A stretch of DNA of 64,000 nucleotides from an uncultured Bacteroidales bacterium (GTDB taxonomy: Bacteria; Bacteroidota; Bacteroidia; Bacteroidales; P3), in contig CAJOEN010000012.1 of assembly GCA_905233475.1 (NCBI GenBank), positions 1 through 64,000 on the forward strand. Direction: 5' to 3'. A program made the position numbers and the translations under genes. Below are positions 15,379 through 54,097 of the stretch, piece by piece; position 1 is the stretch's first letter, and the number at the start of each line of letters is the position of its first letter. The notes beneath the pieces were generated by a model. The model did no database searches. It was not told the origin of the DNA and worked only from the letters and a program-made list of their open reading frames with translations.

Positions 15379-15854
15379 ACAGAATAGCTTGTTACAAAAT
15401 GAGTATAATCCAATGCTTTTTCCGTTTTGAATGTCAGCTGATTGTATAATTTTCGCACTTTTAGTCGTGCTAGGGTTTCCTCCTTTGTGAGCAGTCCGGC
15501 TTGAAAAGCTGCAAGAGTTCTGAAAACATCGTCGTTTGCCACGGGTCCGTAAACAAAATCGCATTCGGGAGTGGCAATGCCGTTTCGGTTGTCGCTCACA
15601 TAGTCGAGCCATGCTTCGTCGGGATTGTCGAGCCAAATGTTTCTCAGTTCCGATTCCATTTTTTCGACATCTGTCTCGTAAACATTTACAATACCTTGTT
15701 CAGCGCCGTTACGGTCCTGAACCTTGCGCGCAAAGTTCTTGGCCTGCATTTCGTTCAGTGTAGTATAAAACCCCTTGCCGAAATCCAAAGCCCTGTTAGG
15801 CTCTAAAATTTTCGGTGTTTCAATTTTTCTGTCGCTTCCGTGGTAAGTAATCAT
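15375..15854 (-). CDS. DUF3990 protein (ADP-ribosyltransferase-like), cassette A
   Basis: 159 residues. The start MITYHGSD carries the conserved YHGS/T; ALDFGKGFYTTLNEMQAKNFA (about residues 23-43) and CDFVYGPVANDDVF (about 98-111) are the other blocks shared with the copy at 34694-35167. The H (YHG), Y (GKGFY) and late acidic positions resemble the H-Y-E layout of ADP-ribosyltransferases, to which this family has been related. Activity here is unproven. Starting 27 bases after the coaBC stop on the same strand, it is probably read from the coaBC promoter. Confidence 0.78.
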   Translation of the reverse strand: MITYHGSDRKIETPKILEPNRALDFGKGFYTTLNEMQAKNFARKVQDRNGAEQGIVNVYETDVEKMESELRNIWLDNPDEAWLDYVSDNRNGIATPECDFVYGPVANDDVFRTLAAFQAGLLTKEETLARLKVRKLYNQLTFKTEKALDYTHFVTSYSV

Positions 15855-21718: not shown

Positions 21719-22063
21719 TTAGAACAGAGGTTTTATGTCGTTGGCGTACAGCAGTCCGCAGGCTTTGAACATGGAGAAGTCGCTTTCTATCAGCACCATG
21801 TCGTTGTCCTGTGCCAATTCTATCATCTCTTCGGTGGCTTTTTTCTTGCGCACGAAGATTATGATTTCCAGCCCGGCCATCTCGCAGGTGCGGATGGTCT
21901 GCACATTGCACAGGCCAGTAAGGAGCAGGGGGGTCTGTTTCAGTGTAAGAACGTCGCTCATAAGATCCGACGCAAAAGCGGTTTTTATGTCCTCTGTAAG
22001 TTGTTCTTCGGTGCCGCAAACTATCTTTGCTTCAAGCAGTTCTGCTATTTCTTTTACCGTCAT
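21719..22063 (-). CDS. DRTGG-domain protein
   Basis: 114 residues covering one DRTGG domain (MTVKEIAELLEAKIVCG, then ASDLMSDVLTL and TGLCNVQTIRTCEMAG). Such domains are found alone or fused to CBS domains and phosphotransacetylase-like proteins and are thought to sense nucleotides or act as regulatory modules. It is the first gene of the operon with the HATPase and the hydrogenase-like protein, a gene set seen in hydrogen-metabolising anaerobes. The start ATG at 22063 is 57 bases from a -7 box. Confidence 0.85.
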   Translation of the reverse strand: MTVKEIAELLEAKIVCGTEEQLTEDIKTAFASDLMSDVLTLKQTPLLLTGLCNVQTIRTCEMAGLEIIIFVRKKKATEEMIELAQDNDMVLIESDFSMFKACGLLYANDIKPLF

Positions 22064-22119
22064 TGATGTAGGTTTTTTACGTTTTATAATTTTGTTTTTT
22101 TGCTATTTATAATAAGGTG

Positions 22120-22127
22120 CAAATTTA
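22120..22127 (-). promoter_or_regulatory. -7 promoter of the DRTGG-HATPase-hydrogenase operon
   Basis: TAAATTTG on the minus strand fits the -7 consensus and is the only good candidate in the gap; it would produce one transcript for all three signalling genes. Confidence 0.55.
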
Positions 22128-22254
22128 CGAAAAAAAAATGAATTTTGTGAGGAGAGTGAAATTTCCACCCGTATTTTTCTTTCAAGAGAAAAAAGGGAGA
22201 TGAAGAAAACCAAGGGAACTAATAACTGTGTAGTATATAACAATTTATCGGATA

Positions 22255-22397
22255 TTAAGGGGACTTCTATTTATTCGTTTGAGAGCGTTATTATTCTCCG
22301 TTTCACTATCGAAAAAGCCACAGGCGTTTTCTTCACTCCGACACGCCTGTTCTTTGAGAGTTTGCCTCTCCGAGGCAATTTATAGAAGCCCCCTTAA
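22255..22397 (+). repeat. Mosaic hairpin repeat, copy R2 (both ends intact)
   Basis: 143 bases with inverted ends TTAAGGGGACTTCTAT (left) and ATAGAAGCCCCCTTAA (right). Inside it carries the left block ending GAGAGCG, the alternative hairpin module D (22306-22335: CTATCGAAA, AGCC-aca-GGC, TTTCTTCA), the right half of hairpin A and the TTGCCTC-tcc-GAGGCAA hairpin. It lacks the CCTCACA hairpin present in R1, R3 and R4. Upstream, 22175-22196 shares a run of about 20 bases (CTTTCAAGAGAAAAAAG) with 53969-53990. Confidence 0.82.
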
Positions 22398-22522
22398 TAG
22401 AATTTTAATGCATTACAAGCTTTACGGAAGGCATGGCCTTGTGAAAGGATACGAAACTTTCTCAATTTATATCTTTAGTATCAAACACTTGCATATGTAG
22501 CCTGATTTTTTTATGGAGAAAT

Positions 22523-22553
22523 TTTGTTTTATTGAAAATAAGTTTTATTTTTG
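22523..22553 (+). promoter_or_regulatory. Textbook Bacteroidota promoter
   Basis: TTTG (22523-22526), 19-base spacer, TATTTTTG (22546-22553): an exact fit to the phylum's -33/-7 pattern. It points at a 37-codon frame (22588) and, further on, the secreted protein at 22737. Confidence 0.65.
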
Positions 22554-22587
22554 CAGCAAGAAAATATCAATTATTACAGATAATACT

Positions 22588-22701
22588 ATGAACTATAGCA
22601 CCAACAAAAACATAAGCAATTCTGGAAGGCTGTATTATTTAGATGAAGCCAGCCCAACTAGAGGCATTCTTCTTACGGTGGGGGCAAAAAATATGACATA
22701 A
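22588..22701 (+). CDS. Possible 37-residue leader peptide
   Basis: The first ATG after the promoter at 22523-22553 opens a 37-codon frame (MNYSTNKNISNSG...). It has no recognisable domain and no close ribosome site. It ends 35 bases before the secreted protein at 22737. It could be a short translated leader or only untranslated RNA of that gene. Low confidence. Confidence 0.25.
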   Translation: MNYSTNKNISNSGRLYYLDEASPTRGILLTVGAKNMT

Positions 22702-22736
22702 GTGTATGATGAATCATTTATAAAAATAAATATATC

Positions 22737-23204
22737 ATGAAAAAAGTAACATTAATTATTATTTCAGTGCTGTTTTGTGGACTTGCTTGTGCACAATACA
22801 AACCATCCAACGTCAAAGAACGCAGACCTATAATAGACAGCGTAGAGTTGAACGGCCATAAATATTTGACGGTATCGTTCCTTGCTAAAGACGACAAACT
22901 TATGTACGTTATGGAACAGATTGAAGAATGCGGCTGGGAATTTGCTGCTTGTCAAACAGAAGGCGATAATACACGGATATGTGCCAAATGCCCTATGAAA
23001 GGTAACGATCCAATACCAGTGCTTTGCATAGGAAAATTCGATTATCCGGATGGTTCATTCAACTTTGAGGGACTTTCGGCTTATGGAAAGAAACTTGTAA
23101 CAACCTGCACTTTCAAAAATGGGAAGCTCGTAAGCGTACTTCGGGATGACAAAGACGTTACACCAAGGTTTGTCGTTTCGCCAGATGAGAAAGATGTGTG
23201 GTAG
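22737..23204 (+). CDS. Secreted protein of unknown function
   Basis: 155 residues. The signal peptide (MKKVTLIIISVLFCGLACAQ) has LACA near its cleavage site, so the product is periplasmic or secreted. The mature part has a Cys cluster in the middle (ECGWEFAACQTEGDN, then ICAKCPMKG and VLCIGKF, about residues 61-100) that could form disulfides or bind metal, and ends with TPRFVVSPDEKDVW. I do not recognise a family. Own promoter upstream and terminator downstream make it a single-gene unit, between a mosaic repeat and the convergent TPR/PD40 gene. Confidence 0.65.
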   Translation: MKKVTLIIISVLFCGLACAQYKPSNVKERRPIIDSVELNGHKYLTVSFLAKDDKLMYVMEQIEECGWEFAACQTEGDNTRICAKCPMKGNDPIPVLCIGKFDYPDGSFNFEGLSAYGKKLVTTCTFKNGKLVSVLRDDKDVTPRFVVSPDEKDVW

Positions 23205-33575: not shown

Positions 33576-34376
33576 ATGTATAAAATAGTAGTACTGATAA
33601 AGCAGGTTCCCGACACACAGAATGTGGGTCCCGACGCAATGAATGCCGACGGCACAGTAAACCGTCAGGCGCTGCCTGCCATTTTCAACCCCGAAGACCT
33701 GAAAGCCCTCGAGATGGCCTTGCAGGTGAAAGAACAGAATCCCGGCACCGAAATCACCGTCCTCACCATGGGTCCGGACCGTGCCGCCTCCATCATACGC
33801 GACGCCCTCTCGCGTGGCGCCGACAAGGGTGTGATAATCTCCGACATGCGTTTTGCCGGTTCCGACACCCTCGCCACGACGTACGCTCTGGCTTGCGCCA
33901 TAAAGAAGATAGGACACTACGACATGGTGTTCGGTGGCCGTCAGGCTATCGACGGCGACACCGCACAGGTGGGTCCGCAGGTGGCCGAAAAGCTCAACCT
34001 GCCGCAGATTACCTACGCCGAAAAGCTGGTAAGTCTCAAAGACAACACCATAACCCTCACCCGTCGCTTGGACAACGGCGTGGAGACGGTGGAAGCCACC
34101 CTTCCGGTGCTTGTTACCGTTACCGCCTCGGCAACCGACTGCCGTTATCCCCACGCACACCGTCTGCTGAAATACGCCAAGGCCGCGCCCGAGATATGGA
34201 ACGCCGACGCCATCGACCCGGAGATGGAGCGTCTCGGACTTAAAGGCTCGCCTACCAAGGTGAAAAAGATAGACAATGTGGTGCTTGCCCACAAGGACGC
34301 CCAGCAGGTGGAACCCACCGAGGCCGCCCTCAACGACCTTGTGGCCGGACTGATGAAAGACCATATCATTGGGTAG
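33576..34376 (+). CDS. etfB: Electron transfer flavoprotein, beta subunit
   Basis: 266 residues, normal for EtfB. MYKIVVLIKQVPDTQNV at the N-terminus, NPEDLKALEMALQVKE near residue 38, and the DYDMVFGGRQAIDGDTAQVGPQVAE equivalent near residue 112 (nucleotide-binding loop) are conserved. EtfAB is an FAD heterodimer taking electrons from acyl-CoA dehydrogenases. The partner etfA normally follows directly but is here 2.4 kb away, after an AT-rich insert of four genes. Confidence 0.94.
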   Translation: MYKIVVLIKQVPDTQNVGPDAMNADGTVNRQALPAIFNPEDLKALEMALQVKEQNPGTEITVLTMGPDRAASIIRDALSRGADKGVIISDMRFAGSDTLATTYALACAIKKIGHYDMVFGGRQAIDGDTAQVGPQVAEKLNLPQITYAEKLVSLKDNTITLTRRLDNGVETVEATLPVLVTVTASATDCRYPHAHRLLKYAKAAPEIWNADAIDPEMERLGLKGSPTKVKKIDNVVLAHKDAQQVEPTEAALNDLVAGLMKDHIIG

Positions 34377-34484
34377 TATTAACGAAAGTATGCGTTGCTG
34401 CGGAATACTTGTTGAGAATCACTGTTTTTGTCGCCTTGTTTTTGATGATATACAATAAAAACAGATGCATGGCGTTATAATGAT

Positions 34485-34697
34485 ATGATGGACAAAATTC
34501 GATACATCAACCTTTGTATTGTTGAGTTTGGCAAACGCTACGGGATGCCAGCAACTCAAGCGTTCAATTATTTGGATACTTACAAGGGTTTTGCATTCCT
34601 CGTCAAAAACTACGAAGCCGAACATTTGTTGCCACTCAACGACACCATTGCCGACCTTGCAGCATATTGTAAACGTCATGGAGGAACTATGGCATGA
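34485..34697 (+). CDS. DUF3791 protein, first gene of cassette B
   Basis: 70 residues (two adjacent ATG codons at 34485 and 34488; the second gives 69). The pattern RYINLCIVEFGKRYGM, FNYLDTYKGFAFLVKNYEAEHLL follows the DUF3791 fold of the 14921-15133 protein with low identity. It overlaps the DUF3990 gene by four bases. In cassette A the homologue is last in the operon; here it is first. Likely the regulatory or antitoxin-like member; unproven. Confidence 0.68.
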   Translation: MMDKIRYINLCIVEFGKRYGMPATQAFNYLDTYKGFAFLVKNYEAEHLLPLNDTIADLAAYCKRHGGTMA

Positions 34698-35167
34698 TAC
34701 TCTATCACGGTACTAACACGGATTTTGCAGAGATTGTCCTCGCTAAATGCCGCCCCAACAAGGATTTCGGTCAAGGTTTTTACTTGACGGATATACGTAG
34801 CCAGGCGGAGAATATGGCAGTGCGCAGATGCGAGTTCGAAGGAGCTGGAGTTCCAATAGTTCAAGAATATAGCTTTGATGAAAATCTTTTGAATAGTTGT
34901 GACCTCAAAGTTCTGAAATTTGATGGCGTTAGTGATGATTGGGCAGAGTTTATTCTGATGAACCGTATGGCAAAAGGTGAACGTAAACATGACAACGACA
35001 TTGTTGTTGGACCAGTGGCAGACGATGGAGTGGTGTTTCAGCTGAACCTTTATTTGCAGCATCTTATCGACTTGGACACATTGGTGGAAAAATTAAGATT
35101 CCGTAAATTGAACAACCAATATTATTTCGGAACCGAACGTGCAATTCAAAAACTGGAACGTATATGA
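34694..35167 (+). CDS. DUF3990 protein (ADP-ribosyltransferase-like), cassette B
   Basis: 157 residues. YHGTNTDF at the start, DFGQGFYLTDIRSQAENMA (about 26-44) and NDIVVGPVADDGVVF (about 102-116) match the cassette A copy block by block, while the sequence between is divergent, so the copies are old or arrived separately. The conserved His (YHG), Tyr (GQGFY) and acidic positions suggest an ADP-ribosyltransferase-like active site. ATGA overlaps link it to the genes on both sides. A toxin role is inferred from family and context. Confidence 0.77.
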   Translation: MILYHGTNTDFAEIVLAKCRPNKDFGQGFYLTDIRSQAENMAVRRCEFEGAGVPIVQEYSFDENLLNSCDLKVLKFDGVSDDWAEFILMNRMAKGERKHDNDIVVGPVADDGVVFQLNLYLQHLIDLDTLVEKLRFRKLNNQYYFGTERAIQKLERI

Positions 35168-35379
35168 ACATAACACAGGAACAATTTCAGTTTATCGTAA
35201 ACAGTGACGTGGAACAGCTTGTATGCCGTTTGCAAGAAGACAAAGGTATGTCTATTTCCGATGCTTTTGGTCGTGTGTATAACTCGGAAATATATAAAAA
35301 ACTGCTGAATGTAAACACAGGGCTCTATCTTCAAAGTTCAGATTATATCTACGACTACCTATGCGAAGAAGTGCGATGA
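35164..35379 (+). CDS. Small helical protein, third gene of cassette B
   Basis: 71 residues; start fixed by the ATGA overlap with DUF3990. MNITQEQFQFIVNSDVEQLV then DAFGRVYNSEIYKKLL shares the DA-x4-YNS-x-Y motif with the second gene of cassette A (15130-15378). It is AT-rich in codon use. Predicted helical, no membrane segment, no DNA-binding motif that I can see. Function unknown. Confidence 0.68.
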   Translation: MNITQEQFQFIVNSDVEQLVCRLQEDKGMSISDAFGRVYNSEIYKKLLNVNTGLYLQSSDYIYDYLCEEVR

Positions 35380-35493
35380 CGATGAGGAACAGGAGCGGGA
35401 TTACAAATCAGACACGACGAAAAAATATAATCTCAATAGTAGATGGAGAATTACACATATTAAAGAATAAATAAAAAATCAATATAATGAAAT

Positions 35494-36735
35494 ATGGGTA
35501 AGAAAAGCGAACAACTTAGTTATTTGGATTTCCTTGACGCTCTTGATAAGTGTAAATCTGGATCGGATGAAGAATTTGAGATTTACAAGGGACTTGTTGA
35601 GTATTTGGAAAGTGAATCGGAAATCAACGAGTTGAAAGAAACTTTGATATCAGATGAGGGCAGGATAATATGTCCATATACAGAAGATGTGAAATATGAG
35701 GATGATATGAAGTTTCACATATTTCCTGCATTTTTGGATGACATAGCTGCACCATTTGACAACCTTGCAGTTATGTATATGGATAGGAATGATTATGAAA
35801 ATGCTTTCTTATTGTTACAAAAAGCTTTGCCTTTGTACCGAGCAATGGAAATCTATAATCCCGCATTAACATATCAAAGGTATTATGCAACTCTGAGGCT
35901 AGTTGAATGCTTACATAAAATGGGAAATGAAAAATTAGCCTTATACTATGAATATGAAATGAAGTATCTTAAATGCGATGTGTTGGAAGAAAGGGAATAT
36001 AGAAATATTCGTCGTTTGCTTTTGTATTTGAAGAAAAAAGGCATCACACCGTTTATTGGTTATGGAAACCCTAATGCCGACATTTTGATAGTTGGTAAAG
36101 AATGTGCCCACGTAGAAGGTGATGAGAATTATGATAAGTTCTATAAGTCGAATTTCGAACATTGGTATGAAACCGTTTTTTGTGGTCATAAATGTACATA
36201 TAAATCAGGTGAGGAACCATATGATTTCGAACATGGGAACTTTCATCCAATAAATCCTTTTTATAAATTAGAGAATAAAAAACAATCAAGCAAAAAAGAA
36301 ATTGGCAGACCAAGTGCAACGTATTACTATTACCAACGTCTGATAGATAAAATAAGAGCGTGTCGCAGTGGCAAAGGATGTGGGAAATCGGAAATTATAG
36401 ACTTTTTTAGCGATTGTTTTATTACAGAATTAAGCGATAAATGTCGTCCTAACAATAAAAATATTTCAAAATCAGATAGAATTGCTACAGAAGAAAGTAT
36501 AAGAAATAGATTTGATTGGATGCGAGAAACAGATTTTTTTAGGCAGTTTAAAGTGGTAATTCTTGCGTGTGGTCCTTCTTATGCAAAAAGAATTATGGAA
36601 GATGAAACATTGCGCTTGCAACTATTTGGAAATGCTCAAGTTTTTTATTGCAATCAACTCTCGCGTTGGGACAAGACATTAGATAAAAAAATACCGGAAA
36701 TACAAAAAGTGTTGTATGAAGGTCTTTACAGTTAA
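35494..36735 (+). CDS. AT-rich protein: TPR-like N-terminus, uracil-DNA-glycosylase-like C-terminus
   Basis: 413 residues. The N-terminal part (about 1-180) is helical, with a TPR-like unit (FDNLAVMYMDRNDYENAFLLLQKA cut around residues 88-111). The C-terminal part begins GYGNPNADILIVGKECAHVEGDE (about 188-210), resembling the PxADILxVGExPG strand-loop of UDG-superfamily proteins, and continues with FFRQFKVVILACGPSYAKRI and NAQVFYCNQLSRW where that fold has its last strands. Codon use is much more AT-rich than in etfB and etfA. No catalytic residue can be assigned confidently. It may belong to a defence or accessory module. Confidence 0.6.
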   Translation: MGKKSEQLSYLDFLDALDKCKSGSDEEFEIYKGLVEYLESESEINELKETLISDEGRIICPYTEDVKYEDDMKFHIFPAFLDDIAAPFDNLAVMYMDRNDYENAFLLLQKALPLYRAMEIYNPALTYQRYYATLRLVECLHKMGNEKLALYYEYEMKYLKCDVLEEREYRNIRRLLLYLKKKGITPFIGYGNPNADILIVGKECAHVEGDENYDKFYKSNFEHWYETVFCGHKCTYKSGEEPYDFEHGNFHPINPFYKLENKKQSSKKEIGRPSATYYYYQRLIDKIRACRSGKGCGKSEIIDFFSDCFITELSDKCRPNNKNISKSDRIATEESIRNRFDWMRETDFFRQFKVVILACGPSYAKRIMEDETLRLQLFGNAQVFYCNQLSRWDKTLDKKIPEIQKVLYEGLYS

Positions 36736-36814
36736 TGATTCAAGTTGTTTTGGATTTATAAACCAGAAAATACAAGATATTCAAATAAAAATAGAATAAT
36801 AAAACAAAAAAATC

Positions 36815-37831
36815 ATGATACTGATATATTGCGAACTTGCAGAAAACGGCCATGTGGCCGATGTAAGTCTGGAACTCTGCACCAAGGGTCGCAGCCTTGC
36901 CAACGAGCTGGGCACGCAGCTTGCCGCTTTGGTTTGCGGCAGCGGTCTCGACACCATCGAACAGCAGCTGTATCCCTTTGGCGTGGACCAAGTGTTCAAA
37001 GCCGACGACAAACGTTTGTCGCCATACCGCACCCTGCCTCATTTTGCGGTGCTTTCTAAAGTCATCGAGGAAAACCGTCCCGACGTGGTGCTTATGGGTG
37101 CCACCTGCGTGGGACGCGACCTCGCGCCGCGTATCTCCTCGTACCTGCGTTGCGGCCTCACCGCCGACTGCACATCGCTGGAGATAGGTCCCTACGAGGA
37201 TAAGGTTACCAAAAAACAATACGACAAGATTCTCTATCAGATTCGTCCCGCTTTCGGCGGAAACATAATAGCCACCATTGTGAACCCCGAAACCCGTCCG
37301 CAGATGGCCACCGTGCGCGAAGGCGTGATGAAGAAAGAAGTCGTGGATGCCAACTACAAAGGCACCGTAACGTCCCTCGACGCCAATAAATACCTGCGTG
37401 GCGAGGACGAATGCGTGAAGATAATCGCCCGCGAGATAGAGCAGCAGAAAATCAACATAAAGAACTCGTCCATCATCGTTTCCGGTGGCTACGGCATGGG
37501 CAGCAAGGAGAATTTCGAGATGCTGCACCAGCTGGCACAGGCCCTTGGCGGTGAGGTGGGAGCCACCCGCGCCGCCGTGGATGCTGGTTTTGCCGAAGGC
37601 GACCGCCAGATAGGACAGACGGGCGTTACCGTACGACCGAAACTCTACATCGCCTGCGGTATCTCCGGAGCCGTGCAGCACCGCGCCGGCATGGACCAGT
37701 CGGGCAAGATAATCTCCATCAACACCGACCCCGAAGCGCCTATCAACGCCATCGCCGACTACACCATTATCGGCGACGTGTGCAAAGTGGTGCCGCAACT
37801 GATAGCTTGTTACAATAAAAACAAAAAATAA
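36815..37831 (+). CDS. etfA: Electron transfer flavoprotein, alpha subunit
   Basis: 338 residues. The C-terminal FAD domain is clear: IIVSGGYGMGSKENFEMLHQ (about 215-234), GATRAAVDAGF, then GQTGVTVRPKLYIACGISGA and QHRAGMDQSGKIISINTDPE (about 280-305). It binds FAD and passes electrons from the dehydrogenase. The acyl-CoA dehydrogenase gene starts 12 bases downstream, so etfA and the dehydrogenase form a unit from which etfB has been separated by the insert. Confidence 0.95.
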   Translation: MILIYCELAENGHVADVSLELCTKGRSLANELGTQLAALVCGSGLDTIEQQLYPFGVDQVFKADDKRLSPYRTLPHFAVLSKVIEENRPDVVLMGATCVGRDLAPRISSYLRCGLTADCTSLEIGPYEDKVTKKQYDKILYQIRPAFGGNIIATIVNPETRPQMATVREGVMKKEVVDANYKGTVTSLDANKYLRGEDECVKIIAREIEQQKINIKNSSIIVSGGYGMGSKENFEMLHQLAQALGGEVGATRAAVDAGFAEGDRQIGQTGVTVRPKLYIACGISGAVQHRAGMDQSGKIISINTDPEAPINAIADYTIIGDVCKVVPQLIACYNKNKK

Positions 37832-40974: not shown

Positions 40975-41178
40975 ATGATGAAACTAAGAGACACGATAAA
41001 AAACAGGCGTGAACAAACGAATTTGTCGCAGAAAGACCTTGCGGAAATGTCTGGCGTGAGCCTCGCAACGGTGAAAGATATTGAACGCGGAAAGGGTAAC
41101 CCTTCGCTGCAAACGGTGGAAAAAATTCTCGCTGTTTTGGGTATGGAGGTCGTTTATCAACTGCGAAAGACTGTGTAA
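40975..41178 (+). CDS. hipB: HipB-like Xre-family antitoxin/repressor
   Basis: 67 residues, essentially one helix-turn-helix domain: LSQKDLAEMSGVSLATVKDIERGKGNP cut over residues 18-44 is the classical Xre five-helix motif, ending VLGMEVVYQLRKTV. Preceded by a promoter and a palindrome, as expected for autoregulation. The next two genes split the HipA kinase in two, so it is best read as HipB of a tripartite HipBST system. In the E. coli HipBST system HipS rather than HipB neutralises the kinase. Confidence 0.82.
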   Translation: MMKLRDTIKNRREQTNLSQKDLAEMSGVSLATVKDIERGKGNPSLQTVEKILAVLGMEVVYQLRKTV

Positions 41179-41201
41179 AAAATGGATTTGTAAATGCGTA
41201 A

Positions 41202-41540
41202 TTGACTATGCGACAGTTGGATGTTTATTGGAATGGCATGCTTGCCGGAACCCTTAGGGAGCAAACGGCGGGAAAGGGGTACAGTTTCAAGTATGATACC
41301 TCATACCTTGGCGGGGATTTCCCCCCCATTACCTTAACACTGCCTAAAACAGAGGTTCCCTATAACAGCGACACTTTGTTTCCTTTTTTCGCCAATCTTC
41401 TGCCCGAAGGTGCGTTGCGCAGGGTCGTGTGCCGCCGGCATCGTGTGGATGAAAACGACCTTTTCGGCATATTGTGCGCTATGTCGAGTGCCGACTCTAT
41501 CGGGGCAGTAAACGTCAAGGAGGTGAGGGATGAAAGATAA
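41202..41540 (+). CDS. hipS: HipS-like protein (HipA N-terminal subdomain)
   Basis: 112 residues matching only the N-terminal subdomain of HipA: MRQLDVYWNGMLAGTLRE (1-18), FKYDTSYLGGDFPPITLTLP, LFPFFANLLPEG and DENDLFGILCAMSSADSIGAV. It has no kinase motif. The stop lies 11 bases inside the following hipT, so translation is coupled. In characterised HipBST systems this small protein is the antitoxin. Confidence 0.82.
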   Translation: MTMRQLDVYWNGMLAGTLREQTAGKGYSFKYDTSYLGGDFPPITLTLPKTEVPYNSDTLFPFFANLLPEGALRRVVCRRHRVDENDLFGILCAMSSADSIGAVNVKEVRDER

Positions 41541-42471
41541 TAACCGTCTTTTCGACCGGCCGAGGGTATCAATGGTACTTGGCTTTGATTTGGACGAACG
41601 TCATCATACCGAGGAGATGACCCGGGCGATGTTGCGTATCTCGGTGTCGGGAGTGCAGGAAAAATTTCCCGCAGTGGTGGACGGAAACAAAGTGCGTTTG
41701 GCCAACGAAGGGGAACAGTCGACTCACATACTTAAACCAGCCCCGTGGGATGCCACTCTTCGGGATAAATGGTATATCCCTGCCAATGAACATCTTACTA
41801 TGCAGATTGCCTCGCAGGTGTATGGTATTTCCACGGCTGCCAACGGCATCTGTTCAACTCCGAGCGGCCATGCTGTTTATATCACCCGCCGTTTCGACGT
41901 TGGCGACGATGGCAATAAGTATCCAATGGAGGATATGGCCACGCTTATAGGCAAAAGCGAAGCCGATGGCGGTACCACGTTCAAATATCACGGCTCGTAT
42001 TTGGATATAGCGGACGCTATTCGTCGCTACATTGAGGCATGGATGGTGGATATGGAACGTTTTTTCGAGCTGGTGGTCTTCAACTATATCTATGCAAATG
42101 GCGATGCCCACCTCAAAAATTTCTCCATCATACGTTTTGCCGATGATTACCGCCTGGCTCCGGCCTACGACCTTATTAATACAGCCCTTCATGTGAGTGA
42201 CGAGGATTTTGCCCTCTCTGATGGCCTGTCCGCACTATTGCCAAAGAGCGATGCATATCTCCGCACTGGGCATCCCTGCCGACAGGATTTCGAGTGGTTC
42301 GGAAAAGAGATAGGACTTGTGGAAACCCGTATGCACCGTATCTTGGACAAATATTCAGTTTTGCCGGACAAGACAGTGAAACTAGTGAAAACAAGCCACC
42401 TTACGCAAAAATTGCAGCGCAATTATTTACGCATCGTCCAAGAGCGTGTTAGCAGGTTTGTCAGGAGTTGA
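41530..42471 (+). CDS. hipT: HipT-like serine/threonine kinase toxin
   Basis: 313 residues, the HipA kinase core without its N-terminal subdomain. Gly-rich loop RISVSGVQEKF with Ser38 and Ser40 in the SxS pattern known for autophosphorylation in HipT; HILKP with the ATP Lys at about 69; catalytic loop NGDAHLKNFSI (Asp192, Asn197) and metal Asp214 in APAYDLINT. All key residues are present, so the kinase looks active. HipT is reported to inactivate tryptophanyl-tRNA synthetase in E. coli. Followed closely by a duplicate of the hydE 3' end. Confidence 0.83.
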   Translation: MKDNNRLFDRPRVSMVLGFDLDERHHTEEMTRAMLRISVSGVQEKFPAVVDGNKVRLANEGEQSTHILKPAPWDATLRDKWYIPANEHLTMQIASQVYGISTAANGICSTPSGHAVYITRRFDVGDDGNKYPMEDMATLIGKSEADGGTTFKYHGSYLDIADAIRRYIEAWMVDMERFFELVVFNYIYANGDAHLKNFSIIRFADDYRLAPAYDLINTALHVSDEDFALSDGLSALLPKSDAYLRTGHPCRQDFEWFGKEIGLVETRMHRILDKYSVLPDKTVKLVKTSHLTQKLQRNYLRIVQERVSRFVRS

Positions 42472-51080: not shown

Positions 51081-53009
51081 ATGAAGAAGGCAAGCCCTTG
51101 TAAATCACAGTTTTCGCATCTGTACTACCTGCTTTCGATGTATGGCGTGGGGATAGTGGCCTTTACGCTGTTCAGGGCTATCAACACTCTGGTTTTCTGT
51201 CTAAAAGCCGAACACACCGACTGGGGCTGGGACCTCGCGCGGGCCTTTTTTATGGGCTGGCGTTTCGATACGGTCATAAGCTGCTATATCCTCAGTCTGC
51301 CCTTGCTGTATCTGTCTGTGATAAAGTTGATTGGTGTCAAGCGCAAAGGCTTTTACCTCGGGGCACACGTTTTTGTGGCGGCGCTTTATCTGGTGTCGTT
51401 TTTCGCCTGTGCGGCGGATATACCGTATTTCAACTACTTTTTCACACGGCTCAACGTGTCGGCACTTGCGTGGATGGACTCCCTCGGCTTTGTAGTTAAG
51501 ATGATTGTCGAGGAGCCACGTTTTCTGCTTTATCTTGCTGTCTTTCTGGTTTTTGCAGTGGCCTACGTGCTGGTGATGCGTCGCCTTTACCGCAAGTTTC
51601 TCAAAGAGAGCGAGGGTAATGTCCAGTATTTCAAACAGATAGTCGTGGGGCTGCTTTTGGTGGGACTCTGTTTCTTGGGTATGCGCGGACGTATAGCCTT
51701 GAAAAGTCCCATCCGTGTGGGGACGGCCTATTTCTGCAACGACGCTTTCCTCAACCAGCTGGGGCTGAACCCGATGTACACTTTTTTCAACAGTATCAAG
51801 GAAAGCCGCAAAAACAAGGACATCCACCTTATCGACTCCGACGCTGCCGCCGACGTCTATGCCCGGCAGCTGGCCGACAACACCCTGTGCGATAGCAATA
51901 TAGTGCAGCTCCGCCCCAATACCAATGTGGTTGTGGTGATAATGGAGTCCATGGCCGCCTGCCGTCTGGGGCATTTCAATCCCGACCTTAACCTCTCGCC
52001 CTGCCTCGACACCATCGCGGCGCACGGCATGAGTTTCGAAAACGCCTACAGCGCGGGCATCCACACCTACAACGGTATCTACTCCACGCTCTTTTCGTTC
52101 CCTGCCGTGCTCGACCATCACAGCATGAAAAAGACCGACATTCCGGTGATGTGCGGAATGCCACATCATTTCAAGGCTCACGGCTATCATACCATGTATT
52201 TCACCACCCACGACGAGCAGTTCGACAATGTGGCGGGTTTTTTGTATGGTAATGATATAGAGAGGGTTGTGTCGCAGAAGGATTATCCCGTCAAGGAGGT
52301 GAAAAGCACCCTCGGCGTCCCCGACCACGTGCTTTTCGGCCATGTGGTGGAGGAGTTGGACAAACTGCCGACCGACAAGCCTTTCTTTGCCAGCGCTATG
52401 ACCGCCAGCTACCACAATCCTTTTATCCTGCCCGACGACATCGGGTGGAAACCCCGTTCCGAGAAGATGGAGGACAAAATGGTGGAGTACGCCGACTGGT
52501 CGATAGGGGAGTTTGTGCGCGCAGCCAAGGAAAAGCCGTGGTTTGCCAACACCCTGTTTGTTTTCGTCGCCGACCACGGAGTTTCGGGCAGCTCGCCCTA
52601 CGATATGTCGCTCAACTACCACCACATGCCGATGATTTTCTATTGTCCGTCGCAGATACAGCCGCAGACGCGCTCACAGCTCGCTTTGCAGATAGATGTC
52701 GGCCCCACCGTTTTGGGCATGCTTTTCCCCGACGACGACAACAACACCTTCGGCCTCGACTTGCAGCGACAGAGGCGGCAATACGCCTTTTTCAGTGCCG
52801 ATGACAAAATCGGGGTGCTCGACAGCGCCCGTTTTTACCGTTACAGAGTTGCCGACGCCAACGAGGCGTTGTATTTCTATCGCACCGAAGATGTTGAAAA
52901 CCATATAGATGCCGAACGCGCCAAAGCCGATGCCATGCGCGAGTACGGTTTCGGCATGATACAGCACGCTTTCGACCGCCTGAAAAACAAAAAGACCTCC
53001 TGCCGGTAG
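51081..53009 (+). CDS. LtaS-like membrane sulfatase / phosphotransferase
   Basis: 642 residues from ATG 51081 (a longer frame begins inside the preceding gene). Five membrane segments (about residues 15-40, 58-80, 88-112, 133-155, 185-205) carry a periplasmic alkaline-phosphatase-fold domain. NTNVVVVIMESMAACRLG (about 286-303) supplies the first metal Glu, AGIHTYNGIYSTL (about 325-337) the Thr nucleophile, and FVFVADHGVSG (about 500-510) the Asp-His metal pair. Relatives transfer glycerol-phosphate or phosphoethanolamine. Bacteroidota have no teichoic acid, so a lipid A or glycan phospho-transfer is more likely. Confidence 0.85.
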   Translation: MKKASPCKSQFSHLYYLLSMYGVGIVAFTLFRAINTLVFCLKAEHTDWGWDLARAFFMGWRFDTVISCYILSLPLLYLSVIKLIGVKRKGFYLGAHVFVAALYLVSFFACAADIPYFNYFFTRLNVSALAWMDSLGFVVKMIVEEPRFLLYLAVFLVFAVAYVLVMRRLYRKFLKESEGNVQYFKQIVVGLLLVGLCFLGMRGRIALKSPIRVGTAYFCNDAFLNQLGLNPMYTFFNSIKESRKNKDIHLIDSDAAADVYARQLADNTLCDSNIVQLRPNTNVVVVIMESMAACRLGHFNPDLNLSPCLDTIAAHGMSFENAYSAGIHTYNGIYSTLFSFPAVLDHHSMKKTDIPVMCGMPHHFKAHGYHTMYFTTHDEQFDNVAGFLYGNDIERVVSQKDYPVKEVKSTLGVPDHVLFGHVVEELDKLPTDKPFFASAMTASYHNPFILPDDIGWKPRSEKMEDKMVEYADWSIGEFVRAAKEKPWFANTLFVFVADHGVSGSSPYDMSLNYHHMPMIFYCPSQIQPQTRSQLALQIDVGPTVLGMLFPDDDNNTFGLDLQRQRRQYAFFSADDKIGVLDSARFYRYRVADANEALYFYRTEDVENHIDAERAKADAMREYGFGMIQHAFDRLKNKKTSCR

Positions 53010-53020
53010 GGAGGAGGGTG
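52983..53020 (+). terminator. Terminator-like hairpin overlapping the LtaS-like stop; repeated at 54374
   Basis: ACCTCC-tgccggtaggga-GGAGG begins inside the last codons of the LtaS-like gene. A 29-base run starting AAAAACAAAAAGACCTCCTG is identical to 54374-54402. Weaker stem than the second copy. Confidence 0.5.
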
Positions 53021-53079
53021 TAAAAATTTTTTGTTTCGATGTGCGAAACTATCTTATATTGAATGATTTAGGACAAAAA

Positions 53080-53110
53080 TTTGGCAGATTGAAATAAAAT
53101 CGTAACTTTG
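53080..53110 (+). promoter_or_regulatory. Promoter for the gene at 53220
   Basis: TTTG (53080-53083), 19-base spacer, TAACTTTG (53103-53110). Confidence 0.6.
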
Positions 53111-53194
53111 CAGTGTTGTTTTGTTCGTTATTTGTTTAACGGACTTCGCAAAAAATCGGATAAAATGACTATGAAATCAGAAATAATCTAAAAT

Positions 53195-53209
53195 TAGAAG
53201 TCCCCTAAA
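53195..53209 (-). repeat. Solo end of the mosaic repeat
   Basis: TAGAAGTCCCCTAAA is the exact reverse complement of the left end TTTAGGGGACTTCTA found in R1 and R3. No other part of the element is present; it sits 11 bases before the ATG at 53220. Confidence 0.6.
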
Positions 53210-53219
53210 AAATAAGCTA

Positions 53220-53729
53220 ATGAGAAATATTTGTTTAGTTTCAGTATTTATAATCTTTATTAGTGTTTTTTTCTCTTGCACACATAGAAAAACTGCAGCC
53301 GACTATATTAGATTAGGGGAAAGTTCTGAGCAATACAATTCTGTCAAAGAATATTATGATGACAGACCGAGTGTGATTGATACCACTTTTTTGCTCAAGT
53401 TTATGTTTTTAAATAATCCATATAACCTTGACGAAAAAAACATTATATCAATTTATTTGAATTCTGAATTAGTTTATAGAGGACCATTTAAAATGCTTAT
53501 TGATTTATATGGAAATTCCGATTTATTATTTAAGAAAAGAAATCAAATGATATTTTTCATGGAAATTCTTACTGATAAAACAAAAAAGACAATATGGGTA
53601 CATCAATTTAGTAGTAAAATGGTTTTCTCTTGGAATGAAAATTATAAGATTGTTTATTGTGGATTTTCACCAACTAATGAAGACGTAGAAAAAGTCTTCT
53701 TTATTCCACAATTAGAACCAATGCAATAA
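53220..53729 (+). CDS. AT-rich lipoprotein of unknown function
   Basis: 169 residues. Lipoprotein-type signal MRNICLVSVFIIFISVFFSC (Cys20). The mature part (DYIRLGESSEQYNSVKEYYD, later NLDEKNIISIYLNSELVYRG, then KTIWVHQFSSKMVFSWNENY) has no family that I recognise. Base composition is markedly more AT-rich than the flanking genes, which suggests acquisition. It lies between two copies of a terminator sequence (52983 and 54374), next to a solo repeat end. Confidence 0.6.
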   Translation: MRNICLVSVFIIFISVFFSCTHRKTAADYIRLGESSEQYNSVKEYYDDRPSVIDTTFLLKFMFLNNPYNLDEKNIISIYLNSELVYRGPFKMLIDLYGNSDLLFKKRNQMIFFMEILTDKTKKTIWVHQFSSKMVFSWNENYKIVYCGFSPTNEDVEKVFFIPQLEPMQ

Positions 53730-53968
53730 TAAATCAATAACGTTTTCCTACCTAAGGTAATTTTATAAATAACAATAGCTTTATACGTTCACGAGGTTGT
53801 TGATACTCCACCACAAAAAAACTAATGCAACACTGCACCGCCTGACACAAACGGCAACAGCCCCAACCAATCGATTTTTGTAAAAAAGTTGAAATAAAGA
53901 AAAAAAATTATTGGAGTCCAGTAAAAATAATGGTCTCGGTTAACGATTATGTTCTCCCTTTTTCTTTC

Positions 53969-54097
53969 TTTTTTCTTTCAAGAGAAAAAAGAAAGAAAAA
54001 AGTTCAAGAACATTTAATCCCTATCCAGCGCACTTGCCCCCGCTTCCCGGGTAAATGTTCGGCCCACCGCGCATTCGATTTTCTGCGAAAATCGTTA
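53969..54097 (+). repeat. Second repeat family, copy without module D
   Basis: TTTTTCTTTCAAGAGAAAAA then AAAAAAGTTCAAGAACATTT, TCCCTATCCAGCGCACTTGC, CGCTTCCCGGGTAAATGTTC and CGATTTTCTGCGAAAATCG form a block that parallels 27394-27580. The first run also matches 22175-22196. 53730-53968 shows only AT-rich sequence. Confidence 0.65.

Follow-up and report, generated by a model that had tools for sequence, protein, structure and literature searches.

DNA glycosylases of the uracil-DNA glycosylase (UDG) superfamily that act in phage defence have been shown only recently, and the known members (Brig1 and Brig3; PMC11078745, PMC13160076) are few. Their descriptions place both in defence islands and name the family-4 enzyme of Sulfolobus tokodaii as the best solved match of Brig1, whose base-reading residue Glu147, at a site where uracil enzymes often carry Asn, is proposed to read the Watson-Crick face (PMC11078745). 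The window analysed here, a stretch of 64,000 nucleotides from an uncultured Bacteroidales bacterium, carries a gene whose product joins a TPR-like helical half to a half with predicted UDG fold. The family of the latter resembles Brig1 and Brig3 in superfamily and, for those members that have defence-type neighbours, in its setting; a family-4 enzyme is likewise its first structural match, and a Glu is nearly invariant at the place compared with E147. It differs in motif A, which is GKE here and N50-P51-S52 in Brig3 by the published description, and in its TPR partner or fusion, its exchange with a nuclease and its Bacteroidota range, none of which appears in the available parts of the Brig1 and Brig3 descriptions.

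With family-4 UDG (4zbx/4zby) and TDG/MUG the family shares the fold, the strand order, a polar residue behind strand 1 and conservation of the loop that follows the last strand. The identity in structure alignments is only about 8–14%, a PF03167 match above cut-off is lacking, and motifs A (GKE) and B (HTRQLS or YCNQLS) are not those usual in these enzymes. PDC-S26 (PDDEXK_4), a phage-defence candidate of PADLOC, takes the place of the UDG-fold gene in front of this TPR gene at four loci (L142, L175, L176, which is partial, and L200) and has no significant sequence similarity to the UDG-fold effector. In the DefensePredictor paper (PMC13092281), a figure legend names both UDG and TPR as domains that occur in predicted systems. 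In the open-licence PMC literature we found no paper on the present UDG-fold family or on its nuclease exchange. New here are a UDG-fold family of Bacteroidota missed by all four libraries searched, and the exchange of a base-excision fold for a nuclease fold beside the same partner, whose limits can be seen in the DNA.

The fused gene and its insertion between etfB and etfA

The original prediction had been made for an AT-rich ORF containing the quoted PNADILIVGKECAHVEGDE. This ORF is real, and the stretch is present in its 413-residue product. The locus is organised as follows:

33576..34376, plus strand: etfB, a subunit of electron transfer flavoprotein, bordering the insertion on the left (PF01012, E 8.4e-42)
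34384..36814, no strand: AT-rich insertion absent from relatives; limits approximate, taken from the shared prefix after etfB to the start of etfA
35494..36735, plus strand: TPR plus UDG-fold fusion gene, intact ORF of 413 amino acids with ATG start
35494..36039, plus strand: helical, TPR-like half; its homologue in other genomes is a gene of its own behind a UDG-fold or PD-(D/E)XK gene
36049..36732, plus strand: UDG-fold domain, residues 186–413, assigned from the model of a relative and from SMUG1 rows for the window protein's own model
36815..37831, plus strand: etfA, right flank of the insertion (PF01012 and PF00766)

The claim that codon use departs strongly from that of etfB and etfA was borne out. 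The codon distance to seven neighbouring genes is 17.4 for the fused gene against 5.1 for etfB and 3.0 for etfA, and its GC content of 0.335 (GC3 0.280) compares with 0.581 (GC3 0.712) and 0.559 (GC3 0.687), respectively. Further AT-rich patches of the window at 22001–23000 (GC 34.6%) and 53001–54000 (GC 29.2%) are perhaps other insertions.

A search for etfA in 41 genomes gave matches in 38 and returned 30 loci. In all 29 loci of relatives holding both genes etfB and etfA are adjacent, with a largest gap of about 135 bp, and in the same-genus genomes G001 and G002 the gap measures 28–29 bp. The stretch of 2.4 kb is thus an insertion in the window genome; horizontal transfer of the inserted module belongs to the explanation that we favour below.

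Among 190 genomes of its family the window genome is the sole carrier of the fusion. A second intact fusion, 62% identical over its whole length, was found in another genome (locus L053), which argues against chance or artefact. A frameshift or an assembly error as source of the fusion was ruled out on the same ground.

A UDG-fold family of Bacteroidota and its candidate active site

The C-terminal half of the window protein represents a Bacteroidota family of about 245 amino acids that is unrecognised by Pfam, NCBIfam, PADLOC and PHROGs. Standalone proteins of this length match window residues ~186–413 in searches in relatives and across the phylum, and scanning a species-genome collection with a six-row profile confirmed 38 loci from 103 pattern matches, 35 of them titled Bacteroidota and the other three Chlorobiota, Alphaproteobacteria and an unnamed MAG. 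The contig of L036, labelled Alphaproteobacteria, carries a gene near-identical to one of Balneicella (Bacteroidota) and is probably mis-binned. Alignment A4 has 39 members, and not one passes a Pfam cut-off; two of them match the UDG family PF03167 below it (best E 0.07), while the window protein gives no PF03167 match at E up to 1 and no Pfam match at all in its C-terminal half. No match was obtained for L021 and L141 in PADLOC, for L021, L141 and L059 in NCBIfam, or for the window protein in PHROGs.

In viral contigs the domain was confirmed at 3 loci from 193 pattern matches and the YC-type domain at two loci from 64, of which one lies on the L061 contig; none of 10 pattern matches to the window protein and none of 226 to the TPR half was confirmed there. 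The window protein had no match in phages and one weak TPR match in plasmids, and the standalone member L008 had none in either.

The AlphaFold2 model of the relative L021, computed from 39 rows, has a pLDDT of 90.5 and a pTM of 0.90. With this model, the first 25 Foldseek rows all belong to the UDG superfamily (best TDG, E 1.4e-4), and all 50 VIA-align rows do so as well, led by the family-4 UDG 4zbx with 162 aligned residues at 3.7 Å and a Z of 10.2, a value little above the Z of 8 that the tool calls common, in a list that is uniform. For the window protein the model is weaker (pLDDT 80.9, pTM 0.64); with it, Foldseek ranks TPR proteins first and gives SMUG1 rows at E 0.031, 0.11 and 0.12. 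Profile comparison with UNG was not significant (probability 0.3%), a sequence search of solved structures with the family profile returned only chance rows of Sm-like proteins and carboxylases, and in a viral structure library no row reached E 0.001, the most UDG-like ones being a crAss-like protein (0.029) and a crAssphage glycosylase (0.23). Judged from these models, the C-terminal half almost certainly adopts a UDG fold. The proposal that this half is of UDG type was therefore right at the level of the fold, and the unrelated fold that had been named as its refutation was not what structure prediction and fold search returned.

The N-terminal half had been described as helical or TPR-like, and in the window model it is helical throughout. 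TPR chains lead the structure match of residues ~3–165 with a Z of 12.6, in a range where helical repeats match widely. By sequence, a TPR_10 stretch of the window protein scores E 1.2e-4 and 22.4 bits, under the Pfam cut-off of 27.5 bits, and that of L141 reaches 27.1 bits.

Candidate active-site residues were read from an alignment of 52 domains:

36094..36102, plus strand: motif-A-like G-K-E, residues 201–203, after the first strand; Glu invariant in 52 of 52
36331..36333, plus strand: Tyr280 in the TWxKYQ stretch, conserved in all 52 domains; may stack against the base or serve the structure
36427..36429, plus strand: Glu312, where the second strand ends; candidate for reading the base; Glu in 49 and Asp in 3 of 52
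36646..36663, plus strand: motif-B-like YCNQLS with Tyr385 for the usual His; His in 41 of 52

The 52 rows comprise the 39 of A4 and 13 more, with near-copies and identical rows included. L024 and L055 (broken frames) and L057 were left out of both structure and motif alignments; L174, with its changed C-terminal end, stood in an earlier alignment and, like loci L151–L171 and L188–L199, is not among the 52.

By its order in the fold, G-K-E would be equivalent to motif A; the UNG profile comparison, itself not significant, aligned it with GQD and its Glu with the Asp of GQDPYH. The order in the fold likewise points to the end of strand 2 and the loop after the last strand as the probable places of the base-reading residue and of motif B. 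As Glu312 would stand where Brig1 has E147 (PMC11078745), the analogy suggests that the base read is of cytosine type. In most of the 52 domains the last-strand loop reads H-T-x-Q-L-S. The window protein carries Tyr385 in place of the motif-B His, a replacement shown by all 6 TPR-linked rows, of which three are identical. Since this His is missing, catalysis may be lost in the window protein. MUG-type enzymes carry Asn at the site and still work, and base excision by the predicted Tyr-bearing domain is plausible.

Several loci carry altered copies of the domain. Broken or shortened UDG-like genes, as expected of an accessory gene, lie at L024 5998–6761, L143 7009–7371 and L174 7898–8560, and L143 matches the L053 region with 94.8% DNA identity over 1.7 kb. 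Shorter second UDG-like paralogues stand beside WYL genes at L048 5424–5936, L052 5405–5917 and L057 7225–7740; in these, GKE reads TQKE or VQKE, and they are probably degenerate.

Exchange of the effector gene beside the TPR gene

A profile built from two rows, the window protein and L053, was run on 393 genomes of the order, and the TPR search was extended to the families of G608, G764 and G808. In the window and at L053 the TPR and UDG-fold parts form one protein. At L140, L141, L173, L174 and L201 and in G1218 a UDG gene is followed by a neighbouring TPR gene, and at L141 and L173 a second UDG-like gene comes after the pair. At L141, L173, L142 and L200 the effector gene, including its stop codon, extends 4 to 11 bases into the TPR gene; at L140 the two do not overlap. 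The fusion did not arise by simple read-through, because the TPR part comes first in the fusion and the effector comes first in the operon. The TPR-linked UDG domains form one clade of 6 rows with a support of 100/99.

Family f135 has gene A, WYL, UDG and TPR in this order. Gene A, which lies upstream of WYL, effector and TPR genes in this family, has a conserved N-terminal stretch (SFK..GR/GK..., HSTPYRR or HRTYHRG; SFKR...HSTPYRR) and a hydrophobic C-terminal segment, which is strongly hydrophobic in 6 of 9 sequences (maximum 19-residue mean >2.4). It gave no family match worth keeping and was not found in the window genome.

Gene A copies: L141 9385–10062, L142 4693–5370, L029 455–1012, L040 5374–5934, L043 5387–5932

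Longer forms of gene A occur at L030 1134–2501, L032 2828–4189, L036 3–1265 and L054 4563–5930, with a GINPS stretch in their C-terminal part. They possibly hold a second UDG-like domain; to the eye, GINPS resembles N50-P51-S52 of Brig3.

The same TPR gene was also found behind a PD-(D/E)XK protein (PDDEXK_4, E 1.7e-25) at the four loci named above. This nuclease-family protein matches PDC-S26 of PADLOC at L142 (E 5.7e-55), L200 (E 2.5e-51) and L175 (E 6.8e-64), and the partial piece at L176 gave no PADLOC match. Across the two forms, the TPR protein of L141 (UDG) shares 95.6% identity with that of L142 (nuclease), and the one of L140 (UDG) shares 92.1% with that of L200 (nuclease). For L141 and L142 the DNA identity is 82% over gene A and WYL as far as the effector gene, within which the two do not match; it resumes at 97% with the start of the TPR gene and continues from there. 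Between L174 and L175 the agreement is 98% in the TPR gene and 100% over the 69 bp just upstream of the effector. UDG-type and nuclease-type effectors share no segment (blastp best E 0.063). The exchange is not a single event in one strain, because it was seen in two families. At L028 a PDC-S26-like protein adjoins a UDG-like gene.

The window gene is highly probably a fused variant of this effector–TPR module with its exchangeable effector. As the fuller explanation we favour, with confidence evenly poised, that it is the single-chain form of a two-part accessory module of a UDG-fold effector and a TPR-like partner, inserted horizontally. The UDG-fold part would then probably be the effector and excise non-standard bases from invading DNA, of phages or other foreign elements, and the helical partner would hold, trigger or restrain it. 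Both exchangeable genes would attack DNA under control of the TPR part; the DNA-attacking part would be replaceable, and in the window effector and TPR would have become one protein with the TPR part first.

A wider reading, which we offer tentatively and believe less than not, sees a modular defence of Bacteroidales in which a constant TPR protein triggers or guides interchangeable UDG-fold or PD-(D/E)XK effectors and, in one lineage, acts with a membrane-anchored protein and a WYL regulator. If this were true, the fused window gene would show which parts of trigger and effector touch. The UDG–TPR and nuclease–TPR pairs would allow the TPR role to be tested directly, since one TPR gene could be paired with either effector in the assay.

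The arrangement of the operons also brings to mind a toxin–antitoxin pair, in which the UDG-fold or PD-(D/E)XK protein would be a toxin damaging the cell's own DNA and the TPR protein its inhibitor, fused in cis in the window. The effector gene comes first, its partner follows with a stop/start overlap at the four loci given above, and the partner is constant while the effectors are interchangeable. One small TPR protein would, however, have to inhibit two folds without significant sequence similarity, and the two parts are fused in cis in two genomes; we regard such a pair as unlikely.

Rather improbable, too, is a sensor, that is, a Tyr-bearing UDG fold that would bind unusual bases or flipped nucleotides without base excision and signal through the TPR part. 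The replacement of His by Tyr throughout the single well-supported TPR-linked clade would fit such a role. Against it stand the Glu of motif A and the acidic residue (Glu or Asp) at the end of the second strand, both kept in all 52 domains, and the activity of MUG-type enzymes with Asn at the His site; moreover, the exchange with a nuclease-family protein suggests the role of an effector.

Gene neighbourhoods and the cassette in front of the gene

The neighbours of the family were surveyed at 41 loci with 113 of 116 listed ORFs, those longer than 500 amino acids being cut to 500 and the three second UDG-like paralogues of L048, L052 and L057 dropped. Clustering placed gene A at 8 of the 41 loci, in each case upstream of the UDG-like gene, a WYL regulator at 6, an integrase-like gene at 5 and a family termed cl4 at 4; the names WYL and integrase were given from profile matches and by reading. 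Among the 113 neighbours, for which there was no control set, PADLOC recognised WYL (5), HsdR, HsdS, a type III methylase, DndC and others. A reverse transcriptase stands beside L061, a TIR protein at L059 and a DndD/PbeC-like protein at L033. Members of the family are thus often found near type I and III restriction, Dnd, WYL, reverse-transcriptase and TIR genes, and many others lie alone among ordinary or housekeeping genes (for example L027, L031, L038 and L046). Confinement of the homologues to stable core operons, the second observation that was to have overturned the original prediction, was not what the survey revealed. Genes of cl4 lie beside or near UDG-like genes at L056 6759–7661, L146 6785–7735, L202 5274–6206 and L203 4936–5904 and also at L042, L048 and L057, and the members tested matched neither Pfam nor PADLOC.

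On this reading of sequences and gene order, a role of the family in defence is likely. An ordinary or stress-related repair glycosylase carried as accessory gene, with no part in defence, would accord with the function of the superfamily and with those members that lie alone among housekeeping genes. With a UNG already among its genes (L104), the window genome does not need the fusion for housekeeping uracil repair; the patchy presence, with the fusion in one of 190 genomes of the family, the frequent defence neighbours and the exchange with a nuclease also oppose a repair function, which we consider very improbable.

The window gene had further been said to sit behind a toxin-like cassette, and three ORFs recognised as PDC-M13 do lie in a row directly in front of it:

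34485..34697, plus strand: small ORF with DUF3791 (PF12668, E 3e-18), PDC-M13A of PADLOC (E 3e-21)
34694..35167, plus strand: DUF3990 ORF (PF13151, E 1.7e-47), PDC-M13B (E 2.3e-48)
35164..35379, plus strand: small ORF, PDC-M13C (PADLOC, E 1.3e-15)

PDC-M13 was counted in rumen genomes (PMC13356809). A weak ART-PolyVal match (E 0.011) indicates that the DUF3990 product is possibly ADP-ribosyltransferase-like. The window genome holds nine DUF3990 matches at eight places, the window copy counted, and the other copies are 31–48% identical to the latter over the aligned segments. Another DUF3990 gene within the window (15396–15854, minus strand) is ~32% identical to the copy at 34694. Of the seven other places, a single one is also matched by DUF3791 and M13C, and at none does a match to the TPR-UDG protein lie in the vicinity. 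For this reason the cassette was rejected as an explanation of the window gene; it is probably a separate multi-copy family, a neighbour in the same insertion and not a partner.

That cassette and fused gene might form one system, as their shared strand and insertion, their distance of ~115 bp and their common AT-richness could suggest, is scarcely credible in view of those seven places, of the two-gene forms, beside which no cassette gene was recognised (the cassette itself not being the query), and of the GC content, which is 38–43% in the cassette and 33.5% in the fused gene. Of the defence setting proposed originally, the part that stands rests on the relatives' neighbourhoods and on the exchange with a candidate nuclease of PADLOC; the toxin-like cassette had to be given up as evidence for it. 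Elsewhere in the window, at 40975–42471, a small helix-turn-helix-like ORF is followed by two ORFs that, by eye, resemble a HipA-type kinase.
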